A stretch of DNA of 64,000 nt from Candidatus Latescibacterota bacterium. GTDB lineage: Bacteria > Latescibacterota > UBA2968. This document shows positions 1 through 49,771 of this stretch, in pieces. The translations under genes and the position numbers were made by a program. The notes under the pieces are model-generated. The model did not search any database. It saw only the letters and a program-made list of their open reading frames with translations, and was not told the origin of the DNA. Within the stretch, counting starts at the first letter, position 1. Each line of letters opens with the position of its first letter. The stretch is from NCBI GenBank assembly GCA_022823725.1, contig JAJEHL010000011.1:1-64000 (forward strand). Direction: 5' to 3'.

Positions 1-26
1 TCAAATAAGTTTATTGACTTAAACCA

Positions 27-60
27 CTGGACGCCTGCTTAAAACATGCAGGCGTGACGA
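27..60 (+). repeat. palindromic hairpin element, stem variant
   Basis: An 8-bp perfect stem (31-38 with 48-55, ACGCCTGC/GCAGGCGT) closes a 9-nt loop TTAAAACAT. The flanks CTGG and GACGA and the loop match those of the hairpin at 45765-45798 almost exactly, although the stem sequence is entirely different. I read it as a stem-swapped member of the same dispersed family, sitting 7 bp from another copy at 68-100. No gene is visible in 1-142. Confidence 0.6.
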
Positions 61-67
61 ACGGGGG

Positions 68-100
68 TTGTCATTGCGGCAGGGTGTAAGCCGCAATCCA
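68..100 (+). repeat. dispersed REP-like hairpin, copy 1
   Basis: Palindrome with arms TTGCGGC and GCCGCAA inside the frame TGTCAT...TCCA. Further copies lie at 4866-4899, 7977-8009 and 45766-45797. The TCATTGCG...CGCAATCCA layout recalls REP-type palindromes reported between genes of many bacteria. Role unknown: it could be a transcript-end structure or a non-autonomous mobile repeat. The loop of this copy differs from the others. Confidence 0.7.
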
Positions 101-142
101 GTCTATCAAATAAAATATTAGTAAATTTTTTTGACAGAGCAC

Positions 143-4800: not shown

Positions 4801-4931
4801 CAATGAATTTGCGGTGTATGATTTCTAAAGAATATTTCTGTAAGAAAAGAGCCACAGAATTGCGATTGTCATTGCGGCATGATTTTGAGCCGCAATCCAC
4901 TAAGAAGTTGTAATCTAAACGTGATTCCCCT
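4801..4931 (+). repeat. left inverted repeat of the three-gene cassette (with REP-like hairpin copy 2)
   Basis: Inverted counterpart of 7946-8075. The hairpin core 4866-4899 matches the right copy at all but one position over about 33 nt. Outward, 4832-4863 aligns with 8012-8043 without gaps at 25 of 32 positions, and 4801-4820 with 8056-8075 at 16 of 20; inward, 4907-4931 matches 7946-7969 at about 16 of 24 with one gap. It fills the whole gap up to the stop codon of the first cassette gene. Alignment by eye. Confidence 0.7.
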
Positions 4932-7968: not shown

Positions 7969-8075
7969 ATCCCATGTGGATTGCGGCTCAAAACCATGCC
8001 GCAATGACAGGGCAATTCTGTAGTGCCTTTCTCAGGGAAATATACTGTAGAAAGCCATATACCTCAATTTCATTC
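7946..8075 (-). repeat. right inverted repeat of the three-gene cassette (with REP-like hairpin copy 3)
   Basis: Reverse-complement counterpart of 4801-4931; see there for the matched segments. The hairpin core is 7977-8009 and its adjoining ACAGAATTGC (complement of 8012-8021) is also present next to the left core but not next to the copies at 68-100 or 45766-45797. The strand given is the orientation of the hairpin relative to copy 1. Confidence 0.7.
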
Positions 8076-8395
8076 TAATGTTACGCAAGAACCACTGCGA
8101 CAGCCACCTGGTCAAGAGGTACATATCTTTCACATAACCGCCCATTCATCGCTCAAAATATGCACTTTTGCCGCCAACATTTGTGCTCCTCAACCTCCGC
8201 TCCAACAAGCAATCTACAAATTCAAGTTGTGAACAAAAGCGCAATACTGCATATTGAAAGCATAATGAGGTGCCTGAGTTTCTGTCGAGTCTCCTTTTAT
8301 CACTCAATTTTGTGACATTGGCCTGATATTTGCTTGAGTTCTGACTGTTGCGTTTGTCCAAAATACGACCAACTCTCAGACCTGAGGCATCTTAC
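8076..8395. other. intergenic stretch with no recognised feature
   Basis: About 320 bp between the right inverted repeat and the Rpn-type gene. Short open frames exist on both strands (for example 8146-8361 minus) but they have no ribosome site and no recognisable product. I see no hairpin with a T-run and no convincing promoter. Confidence 0.5.
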
Positions 8396-9316
8396 ATGGC
8401 AGAATTTGATACGATTTCTAAACACCTCATTCAGAAATATCCCAACGACTTTGCCAGTTTCACCCTCGGACGCGAGGACGTTGAAGTTCTTGCAGTCATT
8501 GACACAGAGCAATTCACGATTGAAGCACACCAGACCGATAGCCTGATTCGCGTGCGTATAGATGACGAAGAAGTATTGGTACACAACGAGTTTCAAACGA
8601 CTGACAGCACCAATCCTCCCATGCCGCGCCGCATGGCAGGCTATATCGGACATGCTATTCGGCAACACGGCCTGCCGATCTTTTCCAATGTGATCTACCT
8701 GCGTCCCAATGCCGGGCGGCGCGATCCCGGATATTATGTCCAGGAGCATCTCGGCTACCAATTCGCGGTTCAGTACAGGGTGATCAGGCTGATTGAGACA
8801 GAAGGCGAGCGCGTTCTCGAATCGGGGCAATCGGGTCTGATTCCCTTCACACCTTTGATGAAGCCACCTGAAGGGATGACCTCGGATGTGTGGTTGCAAC
8901 AATGTATTCACACGGCTCGGACGCGCCCTATCGATAGATCATATAGGGCGGATTATCTGGCTGGCATGGTGGCATTGAGCGAGTTGGTATATGAGTCTGA
9001 AGTCATTTCTGGTATCATTTTTAAGGAGGGCATCATGGATCTGATCCGCGAATCATCCCTTTTTCAACACCTGACCCAAGAAAGCAGAGAGGAAGCGAGA
9101 GAGGAGGGCATTGAGCAAGGCATTGAGCAAGGTGAAAGAAGAAGCACGATCGGAGCGATCCTCGAAGTGTTAGAGATTCGATTTGACCTGAGCGACGCGC
9201 ATCCGCTATCTTCTCGCATTGCCGCGATTGACGATTTGCAACGTCTGAAGCAGTTGCTCCGTGCGGCGATACAGGTGCCCAATCTCGAGGCATTTCAGCG
9301 CGTGTTAGATGTGTGA
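8396..9316 (+). CDS. Rpn-type PD-(D/E)XK nuclease
   Basis: A 306-residue protein of the recombination-promoting nuclease / transposase-like (Rpn, DUF4351-like) superfamily. The N-terminal nuclease core shows a DVEVLAVID strand, DSLIRVRIDDEEVLVHNEFQT carried across about residues 50-70 with the catalytic E-x-Q (EFQT), and R-R-M-x-x-Y after it. The C-terminal half holds a charged repeat (EEGIEQGIEQGE) and a terminal helical region, typical of this family. I choose the ATG at 8396 (product begins MAEFDT); an upstream in-frame start at 8348 has no ribosome site. Such proteins are often multicopy and mobile-associated; the role is uncertain, possibly DNA recombination or defence. Confidence 0.8.
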   Translation: MAEFDTISKHLIQKYPNDFASFTLGREDVEVLAVIDTEQFTIEAHQTDSLIRVRIDDEEVLVHNEFQTTDSTNPPMPRRMAGYIGHAIRQHGLPIFSNVIYLRPNAGRRDPGYYVQEHLGYQFAVQYRVIRLIETEGERVLESGQSGLIPFTPLMKPPEGMTSDVWLQQCIHTARTRPIDRSYRADYLAGMVALSELVYESEVISGIIFKEGIMDLIRESSLFQHLTQESREEAREEGIEQGIEQGERRSTIGAILEVLEIRFDLSDAHPLSSRIAAIDDLQRLKQLLRAAIQVPNLEAFQRVLDV

Positions 9317-9378
9317 CGTGATTTCCATAAGCCTGATGAGATATTGGAACACCGCGTAACATCAATCAGTAATATGAA

Positions 9379-18139: not shown

Positions 18140-18221
18140 CATATCAATACGCGACAAAACCACATACAAAGCGCATGCATTATTTCACCTTTTTCCCAAT
18201 CCACGAGGAAATCAATAAGGT

Positions 18222-18371
18222 CTGAGATTCAGGCAGGTCTTCTGGCTTCTGGGTCTCGTGCTTTTCGCGCCTTCCCGGTTTTTACCAGTGACGTAATGCG
18301 AGAAACATCCCCAGTTACAGCGGCGGGACCGCAACGGAATTTCACCGTTTTCCCTATACTGCAACCCAAAT
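18222..18371 (-). ncRNA. cobalamin (AdoCbl) riboswitch
   Basis: The minus strand carries the family's conserved core: GGTGAAATTCCGTTGCGG, then TCCCGCCGCTGTAA, then CTGGGGATG, further on GTCACTGG and CCGGGAAGGCGC, and finally CCAGAAGACCTGCCTG, in the usual order (Rfam class RF00174 by memory). It sits upstream of the btuF-to-btuC operon and is followed by an intrinsic terminator, so corrinoid binding would lower expression. End points are approximate. Confidence 0.95.
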
Positions 18372-18392
18372 CCATGTTTTATGACATTTTAT

Positions 18393-25608: not shown

Positions 25609-26346
25609 TCACCTGGACAATTGACGAACCACAGTTGCGATATCTTCGGCGGTATGGGATGGGCGAAAAAAGAAACGCAAATCGCCGTTCTGGTCAAGGA
25701 GATAGGTATAGAGGGAATGGTCGATAAGATACCCCGCTGCGGAATTCCGCTCGCCAATCTCATAATGAGCCGCATAGCGCTTGACCACCGCGTCAATGCT
25801 ATCCTGCACCCCTGTAAGACCAACGGCTGGCACATCAAAATGCGACAAATAAGTTTTGAGCATTTGCGGGGAATCGCGCTTGGGATCAACACTGACAAAA
25901 AGCGTCCTGAGATCGCGTGCATCCTCGCCTAAAATCGTATAAGCACTGGCAAGCCGCGCCATAGTTTGGGGACACGCATCGGGACAACTCGCATAGCCAA
26001 AAAAGAGAAGAAACGGACGCTGTTGATCCGCCAAATGGAATGAATTGCCATCGTGGTCAACAAGCGTCAAATCACCGCCAAAAGGATAGGGATCGGCAGA
26101 AAGGGCGAGATCGGGATCGGATTTCGGCACGCGCTCAAGCGGTTTACAGGCCACAAATAGCAACAGTAAAGAGCAAAATGCAAAGGACAAAGAGCCTCTC
26201 CAACCCCCTCTTATCTTTCGCCATTTATCTGCGCCCATCTGCGTCCATCCCTGTTTACACCCGCAGAGCCTGCCCCGTAGTGTTTGCCGTATAGAATCAT
26301 TAAGGCACATGCTTATACGGGGGACATGCCTGCGGATCGTATTCAT
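25609..26346 (-). CDS. SCO1/SenC-type copper chaperone lipoprotein
   Basis: A 245-residue thioredoxin-fold protein with the copper-binding CPDAC motif (CxxxC) near residue 118 and the partner His in IDHSLYTYLL near 208; it delivers copper to the CuA site of cytochrome oxidase. A lipobox VAC near residue 67 follows a hydrophobic segment, so the listed ATG at 26346, coupled to the upstream gene by a 4-nt overlap, leaves an odd 50-residue Arg-rich leader. Part of that leader is coded by a short direct repeat (GGACGCAGAT then GGGCGCAGAT near 26230-26250). The ATG at 26238 would give a normal lipoprotein signal and may be the true start. Confidence 0.88.
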   Translation of the reverse strand: MNTIRRHVPRISMCLNDSIRQTLRGRLCGCKQGWTQMGADKWRKIRGGWRGSLSFAFCSLLLLFVACKPLERVPKSDPDLALSADPYPFGGDLTLVDHDGNSFHLADQQRPFLLFFGYASCPDACPQTMARLASAYTILGEDARDLRTLFVSVDPKRDSPQMLKTYLSHFDVPAVGLTGVQDSIDAVVKRYAAHYEIGERNSAAGYLIDHSLYTYLLDQNGDLRFFFRPSHTAEDIATVVRQLSR

Positions 26347-45702: not shown

Positions 45703-45765
45703 AAAAACCTCCTGATATAGACGAATAAGCGAATAGACGAACCCCACCCAACCACCCAAAACCTC

Positions 45766-45797
45766 TGGATTGCGGCTTAAAGCATGCCGCAATGACG
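45766..45797 (-). repeat. dispersed REP-like hairpin, copy 4
   Basis: Arms ATTGCGGC (45769-45776) and GCCGCAAT (45786-45793) with loop TTAAAGCAT, framed by CTGG and GACGA. Same family as 68-100, 4866-4899 and 7977-8009; its loop and frame also match the stem-variant at 27-60. Confidence 0.85.
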
Positions 45798-45846
45798 ACG
45801 GATGGGATTGATCGCTGATTTTTGACCACTGACCGTTGATGAACTG

Positions 45847-46858: not shown

Positions 46859-49771
46859 ATGTTATCCCGAATATTTTTTGTACTTTGTCTTATTCTCATC
46901 ATCCCCATTTCGGCCTTTGCCCAACTCACCATTAGAGGCACAGTCACCGACGAGCGAGGCGGGGGCCTACCCGGTGCCAATATCATTGTCATTGGCACAA
47001 CATCTGGCACCAGCACCGATGCACAGGGCAATTTTGCATTATATCTGCCAGAGATAGAAGCGGAAATCACTATCGAAGCGCGTTTTGTCGGTTACAAATC
47101 CGCCAGACAAACCATTCGTCAAAACAACGGACTTGCGGAAGTCTCTTTTCAACTCAGCGTAGATGCCTTGCAATTCGATGAAATCGTCGTCACCGGCCTT
47201 TCCGTAGCAGCCAGCAAAAAGCAACTGGGAAATGCCATATCCACCCTGACCGTTCGCGAACTGGAATCGACTGGTGCCACATCCCTCGACAAAGCCTTGA
47301 CCGGTAAATTAGCCGGTGCTCTCATTCAGCAAAATTCGGGCAATCCCGGCGGCGGCGTAACTATCCGCTTGCGCGGAACCGGTACCGTCCTGGGCGATGC
47401 CGACCCCCTCTATGTGGTAGATGGCGTCATTGTGAACAACGATTCCCCCGAACTCATCCGTCTCGGGGGCGGGGCACAAAATCGCCTCATCGATCTCAAC
47501 CCAAACGACGTAGAACGCATTGAAATTGTAAAAGGCGCGGCTGCCGCTGCCCTTTACGGATCGCGCGCAAACAACGGCGTCGTGCAAATATTTACAAAAC
47601 GCGGCGTACAGGGCAAGCCTCGTATAACCTATACTTCTCGTGTTTCAACGTCAAAAATACGCAAAACACTGCCTGTAAATCGGGCAACCGTTGACAACAG
47701 GGGAAATAAAAATCCCGATGGCTCCAATGTACAACGCTTTGACCATCAGGACTTCATCTTTAGACGCGCCGGGGGAATGGAGCACTATGCGTCGGTTTCG
47801 GGAGGGTCTGGAAATACCCGTTATTTTGCCTCTGGATCCTATCTCGCCGATCAAGGCGTGGTTGAAAACACATTGTTCCGGCGGATCAGTGGCCGAACGC
47901 GCATCGACCAGGAATTGTCGAACTGGGCAATCCTGTCTGTCGGTGGAAATTTTGTATTTAGCAAAAGTAATGACATACCCAACGGTGGGCTAAATTCAAA
48001 CTACGGCGCGATGACGGGTTTCATTTTTGGCCCCAACACCTATAATCTCACACCCGACCCCGCGACCGGTGCTTATCCGGATGACGGCGTTCTCGCCAAT
48101 CCCCTCGAAGTCATTGATCGATATGATTTCACACAAGAAATCACGCGCTATATTGGAAACGCACAACTAAATGCAACCCCGCTATCTGGATTGAGTATCG
48201 ACTATACTCTGGGCGTCGATTCTTACGACCAGACAGCCATCGCATTTATACCCGCTGGCACCTCTGCACCGAGTCTGGCAAAAGGCCTTTCTCGAAGAGC
48301 TGTATTCGATTTTCTGCAACTCAACAACGACATCAACCTCAGATACCAGCGGCGCATATTTCCCAATATACAATCAACCACGCGAATTGGCGGAACTCTG
48401 CAATACGAAAAAGGAGAAAATTTCAGCGCAGAAGCCAAAAATCTGAGTCCCGTCTCAGAAGTCGTATCGAGCGGTGCAAATGTCGTTACAGGCGAATTTA
48501 GGAGTAAAAGGGTCATTTACGGCGGATTTATCCAGCAAACCTTCGGGGTCGCCAACCGTCTTTTTGTCACGGCTGCTGCCCGCATCGACGCCTCTTCGGT
48601 CTATGACGCGGATAATCGCTGGCAATTTTATCCAAAAGCGAGTGCCTCTTACCTCATCTCAGATGAGGGCTTCTGGCAAAATAGCGCACTTCAAAACATC
48701 TTTTCAGACTTCAAATTGCGAGCCTCCGTAGGCACTTCAGGAGGTCAAACAGCTATTGGGCCGTATGACCGCCTGACCAATTACAATGCATCTTCTTATG
48801 GCGGCAATCCCGGTCTGGTACCCAGCACACAACTCGGCGGGACGATCAAACCCGAAAGACAGCGGGAGGTTGAAGTGGGTGCAGACTTTAGTCTCCTGTC
48901 CAATCGCCTGGGCATAGAACTGACCTATTACGATCAGCGCATCGACGACTTATTGCTATTCCGCACATTATCCCCCTCCACAGGTCACTCGCGTGCCCTG
49001 CAAAATGTCGGCACCATGGACAATACCGGATTGGAACTCCTCGCGCGCGCGATTCCGCTTGCACGCCCCAATCTCCGCTGGGAATCGACCTTCACGTATG
49101 CGACCAACAAAAACAAAGTCGATGGCATTGAAGGCGGGCGATTGATCATCCCCAATTCGTTTTCCCAGGTCTCGGCCATCAATGGCGACCCCCTCGGAGT
49201 TTTCTTCAGCACGGCTTTTGAGCGCGATGCCCAGGGCAATATCGCACACGACGAAAACAACCTCCCAATACAAGCGGCTGATCGCAAAATTATTGGAGAT
49301 CCCAACCCGGACTTTACCGCTTCATTGATCAATCAAATCGCCGTGGGGCAAAACTGGTCATTTCGCATGCAATGGGACGCCATCATAGGTGGCGATATGT
49401 TCAACTTTACCAGACGTCTGGCCGCATTGAGCGCATTTGGCGTTTTAACAGACTACGAACGAGAATTAAATGGCGAACTCCCCACTGGCTATAATTCGCG
49501 GGTCTTCCGAGTTTTTGAACACTGGATCGAAGATGGATCCTTTGTGAAACTGCGCGAACTATCCGCGTCTTATCGCTGGCAGCCTCAATTTTTGGGATTG
49601 AACAGCATTCAATTGAGCCTGATTGGACGCAATTTGCTTTCCATAGACGACTACAGCGGTTACGACCCGGAAACCAACATCGCCGGACAACGCACCGCAG
49701 TGCGCGGATTTGACTTCGTAGAAGTGCCCATCCCGCGCAGCATTGCATTCCGTGTAAGTTTGAATTACTAA
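46859..49771 (+). CDS. SusC/RagA-family TonB-linked outer membrane protein
   Basis: A 970-residue SusC-type transporter. Signal peptide 1-21; CarboxypepD_reg domain (about 23-105, GTVTDERGGGLPGANI); plug with ALTGKLAGALIQQNSGNPGG and DPLYVVDGVIVNN near 140-200; SusC hallmark AAAALYGSRANNGVVQIFTKRG near 222-243 in separate parts; beta-barrel to an aromatic end (IAFRVSLNY). With the SusD-like lipoprotein 10 bp downstream it forms a nutrient-import pair typical of Bacteroidetes and relatives. AGGAGAAATATAC precedes the start; a fair promoter (ATGACA, 17 bp, TACATT) lies at 46803-46831. No enzyme genes are attached, so the ligand is unknown. Confidence 0.95.
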   Translation: MLSRIFFVLCLILIIPISAFAQLTIRGTVTDERGGGLPGANIIVIGTTSGTSTDAQGNFALYLPEIEAEITIEARFVGYKSARQTIRQNNGLAEVSFQLSVDALQFDEIVVTGLSVAASKKQLGNAISTLTVRELESTGATSLDKALTGKLAGALIQQNSGNPGGGVTIRLRGTGTVLGDADPLYVVDGVIVNNDSPELIRLGGGAQNRLIDLNPNDVERIEIVKGAAAAALYGSRANNGVVQIFTKRGVQGKPRITYTSRVSTSKIRKTLPVNRATVDNRGNKNPDGSNVQRFDHQDFIFRRAGGMEHYASVSGGSGNTRYFASGSYLADQGVVENTLFRRISGRTRIDQELSNWAILSVGGNFVFSKSNDIPNGGLNSNYGAMTGFIFGPNTYNLTPDPATGAYPDDGVLANPLEVIDRYDFTQEITRYIGNAQLNATPLSGLSIDYTLGVDSYDQTAIAFIPAGTSAPSLAKGLSRRAVFDFLQLNNDINLRYQRRIFPNIQSTTRIGGTLQYEKGENFSAEAKNLSPVSEVVSSGANVVTGEFRSKRVIYGGFIQQTFGVANRLFVTAAARIDASSVYDADNRWQFYPKASASYLISDEGFWQNSALQNIFSDFKLRASVGTSGGQTAIGPYDRLTNYNASSYGGNPGLVPSTQLGGTIKPERQREVEVGADFSLLSNRLGIELTYYDQRIDDLLLFRTLSPSTGHSRALQNVGTMDNTGLELLARAIPLARPNLRWESTFTYATNKNKVDGIEGGRLIIPNSFSQVSAINGDPLGVFFSTAFERDAQGNIAHDENNLPIQAADRKIIGDPNPDFTASLINQIAVGQNWSFRMQWDAIIGGDMFNFTRRLAALSAFGVLTDYERELNGELPTGYNSRVFRVFEHWIEDGSFVKLRELSASYRWQPQFLGLNSIQLSLIGRNLLSIDDYSGYDPETNIAGQRTAVRGFDFVEVPIPRSIAFRVSLNY

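Follow-up and report, generated by a model that had tools for sequence, protein, structure and literature searches.

Two hairpins in the 64,000-nucleotide window analyzed here, the whole stretch spanning positions 1 to 64,000 of contig C35 in its own genome (5.34 Mb, 51 contigs), are members of two subfamilies of a dispersed palindrome family. Each subfamily is present in many copies, and the pair is not one hairpin whose arms were replaced. The family is probably a genus-specific group of CGTC-type REPs in which a tag strand folds as single-stranded DNA, is bound by a protein, and carries stems that drift as subfamilies. Complementary stem changes have already been noted for REP families (PMC3733652) and for REPINs, and the broad kind, the CGTC-tagged REP, has been described before, whereas neither this family nor its orientation has. 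What is new is the family and its host, a long loop conserved across different stems, nesting of hairpins within loops, a pair change in place at orthologous sites, and a polarity independent of genes.

Hairpins of the window and their anatomy

The window contains the following members of the family and related hairpins.

1..134, no strand: head-to-head composite of a class B and a class A hairpin (B-A composite), with AT-rich flanks TCAAATAAG...TTTTTTTGAC
27..60, minus strand: class B hairpin; its tag strand reads TCGTC-ACGCCTGC-ATGTTTTAA-GCAGGCGT-CCAG, that is, tag, stem, 9-nt loop, stem, and tail
68..100, plus strand: class A hairpin, TTGTC-ATTGCGGC-AGGGTGTAA-GCCGCAAT-CCA, the head-to-head partner of 27..60
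4866..4899, plus strand: class A hairpin with a 10-nt loop, GTC-ATTGCGGC-ATGATTTTGA-GCCGCAAT-CCA
7977..8009, minus strand: class A hairpin with a 10-nt loop; on the plus strand, TGG-ATTGCGGC-TCAAAACCAT-GCCGCAAT-GAC
26273..26322, no strand: nested hairpin pair, CCCCGTA...TACGGGG with TGCCGTA-TAGAATCAT-TAAGGCA in its loop
45765..45798, minus strand: class A hairpin with the loop of class B; on the plus strand, CTGG-ATTGCGGC-TTAAAGCAT-GCCGCAAT-GACGA

An earlier note on this DNA had described the hairpins at 27-60 (on the plus strand, CTGG-ACGCCTGC-TTAAAACAT-GCAGGCGT-GACGA) and 45765-45798, and its coordinates and letters for both match exactly. The ATTGCGGC arms it had assigned to 68-100, 4866-4899, and 7977-8009 are likewise present in each. 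It had overlooked that 27-60 and 68-100 form a single head-to-head composite, and that, elsewhere in the genome, loops of this family hold inserted hairpins of other stem classes. The AT-rich flanks of this composite also recur around several others. Contigs C35 and C48 begin inside a B-A composite, and C8 has one no more than about 140 bp from its end; the repeat is thus a probable cause of the breaks in the assembly.

On the tag strand, the unit consists of a C/TGTC tag, an 8-bp stem, a loop, and a CCA tail. GTC adjoins the stem in every counted copy, as the search pattern imposed, and the preceding base is mostly C or T in the listed copies; the CCA tail lies opposite the tag in matches to patterns that themselves required CCA or CC. 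Loops measure 9 or 10 nt with the consensus RTGNTTTWA and limited variants, and the same loops occur on different stems. The class A stem begins with AT and the class B stem with AC, both being 8 bp long. Stem lengths next to the loop motif form a bimodal distribution, most being either 0-5 bp or exactly 7-8 bp. The same loop type is also carried by related stems that have different flanks (YCCCTGC, CCCCGTA, TGCCGTA, CACTGGA). Some of these hairpins are lodged within a class A loop or where that loop meets the arm, with nesting up to three levels. Class B is usually found in a head-to-head composite with class A (20 B-A composites were extracted); class A occurs mostly as isolated copies or direct arrays. 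Direct tandem class A arrays with a spacing of about 55-127 bp, some with six identical units, occupy loci L222-L226 of the complete relative G007 (C1, 720-820 kb).

By the earlier note's own reckoning, its proposal would fail if loop and flanks were shared no more often than expected by chance or if the arms did not covary. Loop and flanks prove to be shared well above the control: the pattern TGG-N8-TTAAARCAT-N8-GAC, with at most one mismatch and the arms left unspecified, matches 37 places (22 + 15) across the window's own genome and 1 when reversed. Complementary arms are found at 36 of the 37 places, counting one whose only mismatch is C.A, and they fall into four main stem classes: ATTGCGGC, ATCGCGGC, ACGCCTGC, and ACACCTGC. 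When a loop of 5-12 nt is allowed, the exact ATTGCGGC palindrome is found 76 times in this genome and its reversed control 0 times; exact class A hairpins number 139 here and 284 in G007. Within 442 kb, the loop ATGNTTTWA occurs 35 times; a perfect stem of at least 4 bp encloses 22 of these, and in 20 of the 22 the stem is 7-8 bp long; two control motifs (41 occurrences in the same 442 kb) have a stem longer than 2 bp at none.

Two further features of the window were recorded. A cobalamin riboswitch at 18215-18384 on the minus strand (109.5 bits) is its sole Rfam match. A 322-amino acid open reading frame at 8348-9316 on the plus strand has no Pfam match and sits in a stretch of DNA (about 8075-9378) that is repeated many times across the genomes of the genus at about 65-89% identity.

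Stem covariation and maintenance

Covariation was measured in 50 distinct class A and class B sequences, picked to include imperfect copies. Stem cells pair in 98% of cases, and four pairs are altered on both sides. Doubly changed stem cells number 49, compared with 11.4 ± 3.4 in shuffles, a control that is blind to relatedness, so this figure alone does not count events. Perfect stems are present in 250 of 295 copies. A single broken pair is found in 40, comprising 33 with T.G on the tag strand, 4 with A.C, and 3 with transversions; the T.G figures represent copies and not independent events, since 26 of the 33 lie at two positions and many may be inherited.

Stems are maintained in place at orthologous sites. 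In 40 comparisons, stem sites differ at 4.5%, flanks at 13.9%, and loops at 16.8%; the comparisons include a few chance or array matches such as TTCGCGGC/GAGGTGAT, and the true stem divergence is therefore probably below 4.5%. Six comparisons contain a stem pair changed on both sides, in all cases pair 3 from T-A to C-G. Two of these sites have collinear flanks (contig C2 of the window's genome compared with G006:C86, and G002/G004 compared with G007) and the others are weaker, so the in-place change is documented at two or three orthologous sites; their loops differ too. The large difference between class A and class B was never observed arising at one site in the orthologous comparisons, and stem swapping is covariation between subfamilies.

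The earlier note had held that replacing both arms of a hairpin while keeping the pairing implies either selection on structure or a conversion mechanism acting on the arms. Selection on structure is supported by the level of pairing, the excess of double changes, the roughly threefold lower rate of stem change, and the predominance of T.G among one-sided changes. The premise that both arms had been replaced at one hairpin does not stand, since the two hairpins belong to separate many-copied subfamilies and the change in place affects one pair at two or three sites. Conversion, or re-insertion, may have acted at those sites, as the loop differs there.

Arm complementarity may also arise from the mutation process itself, through template switching during replication, which would copy one arm from the other, or gene conversion between copies, which would replace entire hairpins, in either case without selection on the fold. 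Template switching has been proposed to create and restore hairpin pairing (PMC8794818), the differing loops where both arms changed are what a replaced tract would leave, and loop variants are common to several stem classes. However, copying that is blind to strand predicts equal numbers of T.G and A.C on the tag strand, and the observed numbers are 33 and 4. The stems also fall into a few discrete classes with no free drift, and they differ far less than their flanks, although correction could lower the stem figure too. This origin of the pairing is consequently considered unlikely. The covariation is of interest because it lies at the DNA level, with a structure kept in the absence of any known RNA.

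Distribution, mobility, and orientation

Of 11 genomes in one Latescibacterota genus, 10 carry class A hairpins, the complete genome G008 having 0 copies; none of 49 genomes from the phylum's other genera has them. The loop pattern of class B/C is distributed in the same way (10 of 11 within the genus, 0 of 49 outside it), and every named relative with the class B pattern is a Candidatus Latescibacterota assembly, including the complete chromosome OX638329.1. Judging from the literature on the group, we take the hosts to be sponge symbionts.

Mobility was assessed by directional comparisons among stretches of the window's own genome, G002, G004, G006, and G007, in which the orthologous site was empty in 183 and occupied in 103. 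Within the window, hairpin 45765..45798 is missing from its orthologous site in G002, G006, and G007, and the nested pair 26273..26322 from that in G002, G006, G007, and G009; hairpin 4866..4899 is present in G002 with identical letters. The B-A composites vary between species in presence and absence as well. At position 47041 in the joined stretch of C2, one clean insertion measures about 125 bp and has the hairpin midway along it. An insertion at an orthologous site typically brings at least 100 bp of varied mosaic flanks, and nested cases are the only ones in which the hairpin itself is seen to be the moving unit. A single exact insertion unit with target duplication was considered and failed, since the insertions carry different mosaic flanks. 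The one composite for which several orthologs are empty took the place of about 35-45 bp of target. In the regions of loci L211 and L018, recurring mosaic flanks (CGAATAGACGAATAGACG, AGGATGGACAGGATG, CACTTCACACTTC) are inserted together with embedded hairpins.

Class A has a fixed polarity relative to replication, with GC skew read as a proxy for the leading and lagging strands. Its tag lies on the locally G-rich strand at 213 of 227 sites (about 94%; Fisher 2e-46), a count that is not fully independent because several orthologous insertions are common to genomes. With arrays collapsed, the fractions are 66/74 in the window's genome, 64/69 in G007, 24/24 in G006, 12/13 in G002, and 8/8 in G004. 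Gene direction has no visible influence: tags run opposite to genes at 50 sites and along them at 57, and the polarity holds at 46/50 sites where both neighboring genes run against the tag and at 54/57 where both run along it. The bias is weaker in class C, and there is none in class B (19 sites) or class D (a related stem, 23 sites), although class B shares the tag and loop; an early test of composites and class B likewise found no bias. GTAG REPs of the same genomes share the polarity of class A (66/73). A literature search, in which subscription papers were thinly covered, found no report on REP orientation relative to replication.

The G-rich strand is usually the leading strand in bacteria. 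If that is so here, the tag strand is the lagging-strand template, which is the substrate used by IS200/IS605 elements. The tag follows the G-rich strand whatever the direction of neighboring genes, which makes single-stranded DNA, in a link with replication, the probable active form of the hairpin.

The same observations bear on a role in RNA, in which the repeats would be terminators or mRNA-stabilizing hairpins whose pairing is kept for that purpose. Such a role fits the location of 171 of 188 sites outside long open reading frames in DNA that is about 86% coding, and G.T pairs in REPs have been interpreted as pointing to a function in RNA (PMC3733652). However, the orientation tracks GC skew and ignores neighboring genes, the hairpins of the window have no long T run after the stem on either strand, and the hairpins match no Rfam family. 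A function in RNA is thus highly improbable.

A more plausible but still doubtful account places the cause of the bias after insertion, either because one orientation disturbs replication and is selected against or because the motif marks the direction of replication for the host. The strength of the bias and the conservation of stems at fixed sites are consistent with both versions. The shared polarity of GTAG REPs, another family, speaks against this account, and the large turnover in presence and absence between species, together with the absence of class A from G008 in the same genus, speaks against a required host signal.

In the favored reading, that of a protein-bound REP family, the tag strand would fold as single-stranded DNA, most likely while serving as lagging-strand template, and a putative protein would bind the folded strand by reading its fold, tag, and loop. 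This interaction would both spread the repeats and keep the arms complementary. The stem classes would then be subfamilies diverging by pair-preserving changes, with T.G on the tag strand as a possible intermediate, while tag, loop, and tail would stay fixed as the stems drift.

Known systems and the search for a mobilizing enzyme

The closest known repeats are the CGTC-tagged REPs, which lack a flanking transposase as a general feature (Di Nocera et al. 2013, PMC3733652). The present family shares with them a C/TGTC tag at one end, an 8-bp stem, and a CCA tail, as well as complementary stem variants within families, head-to-head heterodimers, and the lack of a flanking transposase (PMC3733652). 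It differs in its 9-10 nt loop with a conserved motif, as published loops measure 4-5 nt with exceptions noted there (PMC3733652), and in the class B stem, which begins with AC and not AT; published stems are 8-9 bp long and start with A-T, T-A pairs. Most class A copies are single, and hairpins nested in loops are a further difference. Head-to-head dimers predominate among the published repeats; here, 20 B-A composites stand beside a class A that is mostly single or arrayed. The host phylum is not one of the five named for CGTC repeats (PMC3733652). Because of its 9-10 nt loops, the family is filed as a CGTC REP variant and not among the four published families.

GTAG REPs and REPINs are also short tagged palindromes with inverted pairs and compensatory changes, the latter reported to be common in REPIN hairpins, and their cognate RAYT (TnpA-REP) recognizes the folded single strand in a strand-specific manner. 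Here, however, the tag is GTC and no RAYT is flanked by the family's repeats. IS200/IS605 elements have subterminal hairpins that are processed as single-stranded DNA and insert into the lagging-strand template; the likeness lies in the hairpin and in the probable use of that template, but no such hairpin lies beside the IS605-type TnpA of the window's genome. Hairpin elements of sponge and fungal mitochondria (PMC2800124) are similarly dispersed, insertion-prone, and found in tandem or multiple arrangements. Unlike the present family, they are organellar; those of sponges have conserved stems with differences in the loops, and lack a conserved loop motif common to different stems (PMC2800124).

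No dedicated transposase flanks the CGTC-type repeats of this family, and the searches yielded no candidate enzyme. The window's genome has one Y1 transposase match, the IS605-type TnpA, which lies beside TnpB and has no family hairpin near it. In the same genome, which is 98% complete, no RAYT match is better than E 0.05. RAYT genes are present in G004, G005, G007, and G010, with a fragment in G009; the search found none in G008. The RAYT gene of G007 (L197:1201-2206) has four flanking GGGCGA-type palindromes, three of them GGGGCGAAA, and one GTAGGGGCGAAA inside the gene. Only GTAG REPs, and no CGTC hairpin, were found around it; it constitutes with them, in the arrangement usual for a RAYT and its own REP family, a separate GTAG REP system in the same genus. 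A search with Pfam Y1_Tnp alone had suggested that G007 and G008 both lack a Y1 enzyme, which was wrong for G007, as the protein of a relative found its RAYT. That RAYT was considered as the enzyme serving the CGTC hairpins and was dropped because GTAG REPs surround its gene.

The earlier note's suggestion of a RAYT-type transposase is not supported for these repeats, since the search of the window's genome found no RAYT and GTAG-type REPs surround the G007 gene. A RAYT of the GTAG-REP type could instead move the repeats in trans. Several genomes of the genus encode RAYTs, GTAG REPs share the replication-strand polarity, and Di Nocera et al. ask whether CGTC REPs are mobilized by RAYTs or by other transposases. 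On the other side, the G007 RAYT is ringed by GTAGGGGCGAAA palindromes with no CGTC hairpin, and the window's genome maintains its roughly 140 exact class A copies with no RAYT match at the above threshold. Mobilization in trans is accordingly rated as somewhat improbable. It is slightly less probable that a non-RAYT enzyme reads the tag and the RTGNTTTWA loop and ignores the stem, in which case any stem with perfect pairing would suffice. If such an enzyme exists, subfamilies could swap stems and enter each other's loops, and the missing mobilizer of CGTC-type REPs would be at hand.

Ever since CGTC-type REPs were described, the lack of a flanking transposase has left their means of spreading unexplained. 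The present family provides useful material, with hundreds of copies, ten related genomes, strong polarity, nested insertions, and one member of the genus that lacks class A. Comparison of gene content between that member, G008, and the carrier genomes, guided by the polarity, makes the search for the enzyme concrete.

Two other genes were observed during the search. Inside the G004 RAYT (L075:1117-1725), the peptide GAGFKPAPT has the look of an in-frame GTAG-type palindrome. A gene of G002 (L071:871-1863) joins a Y1 transposase domain to the end of a DUF6884 domain, and one class A hairpin lies about 120 bp downstream, a single case.
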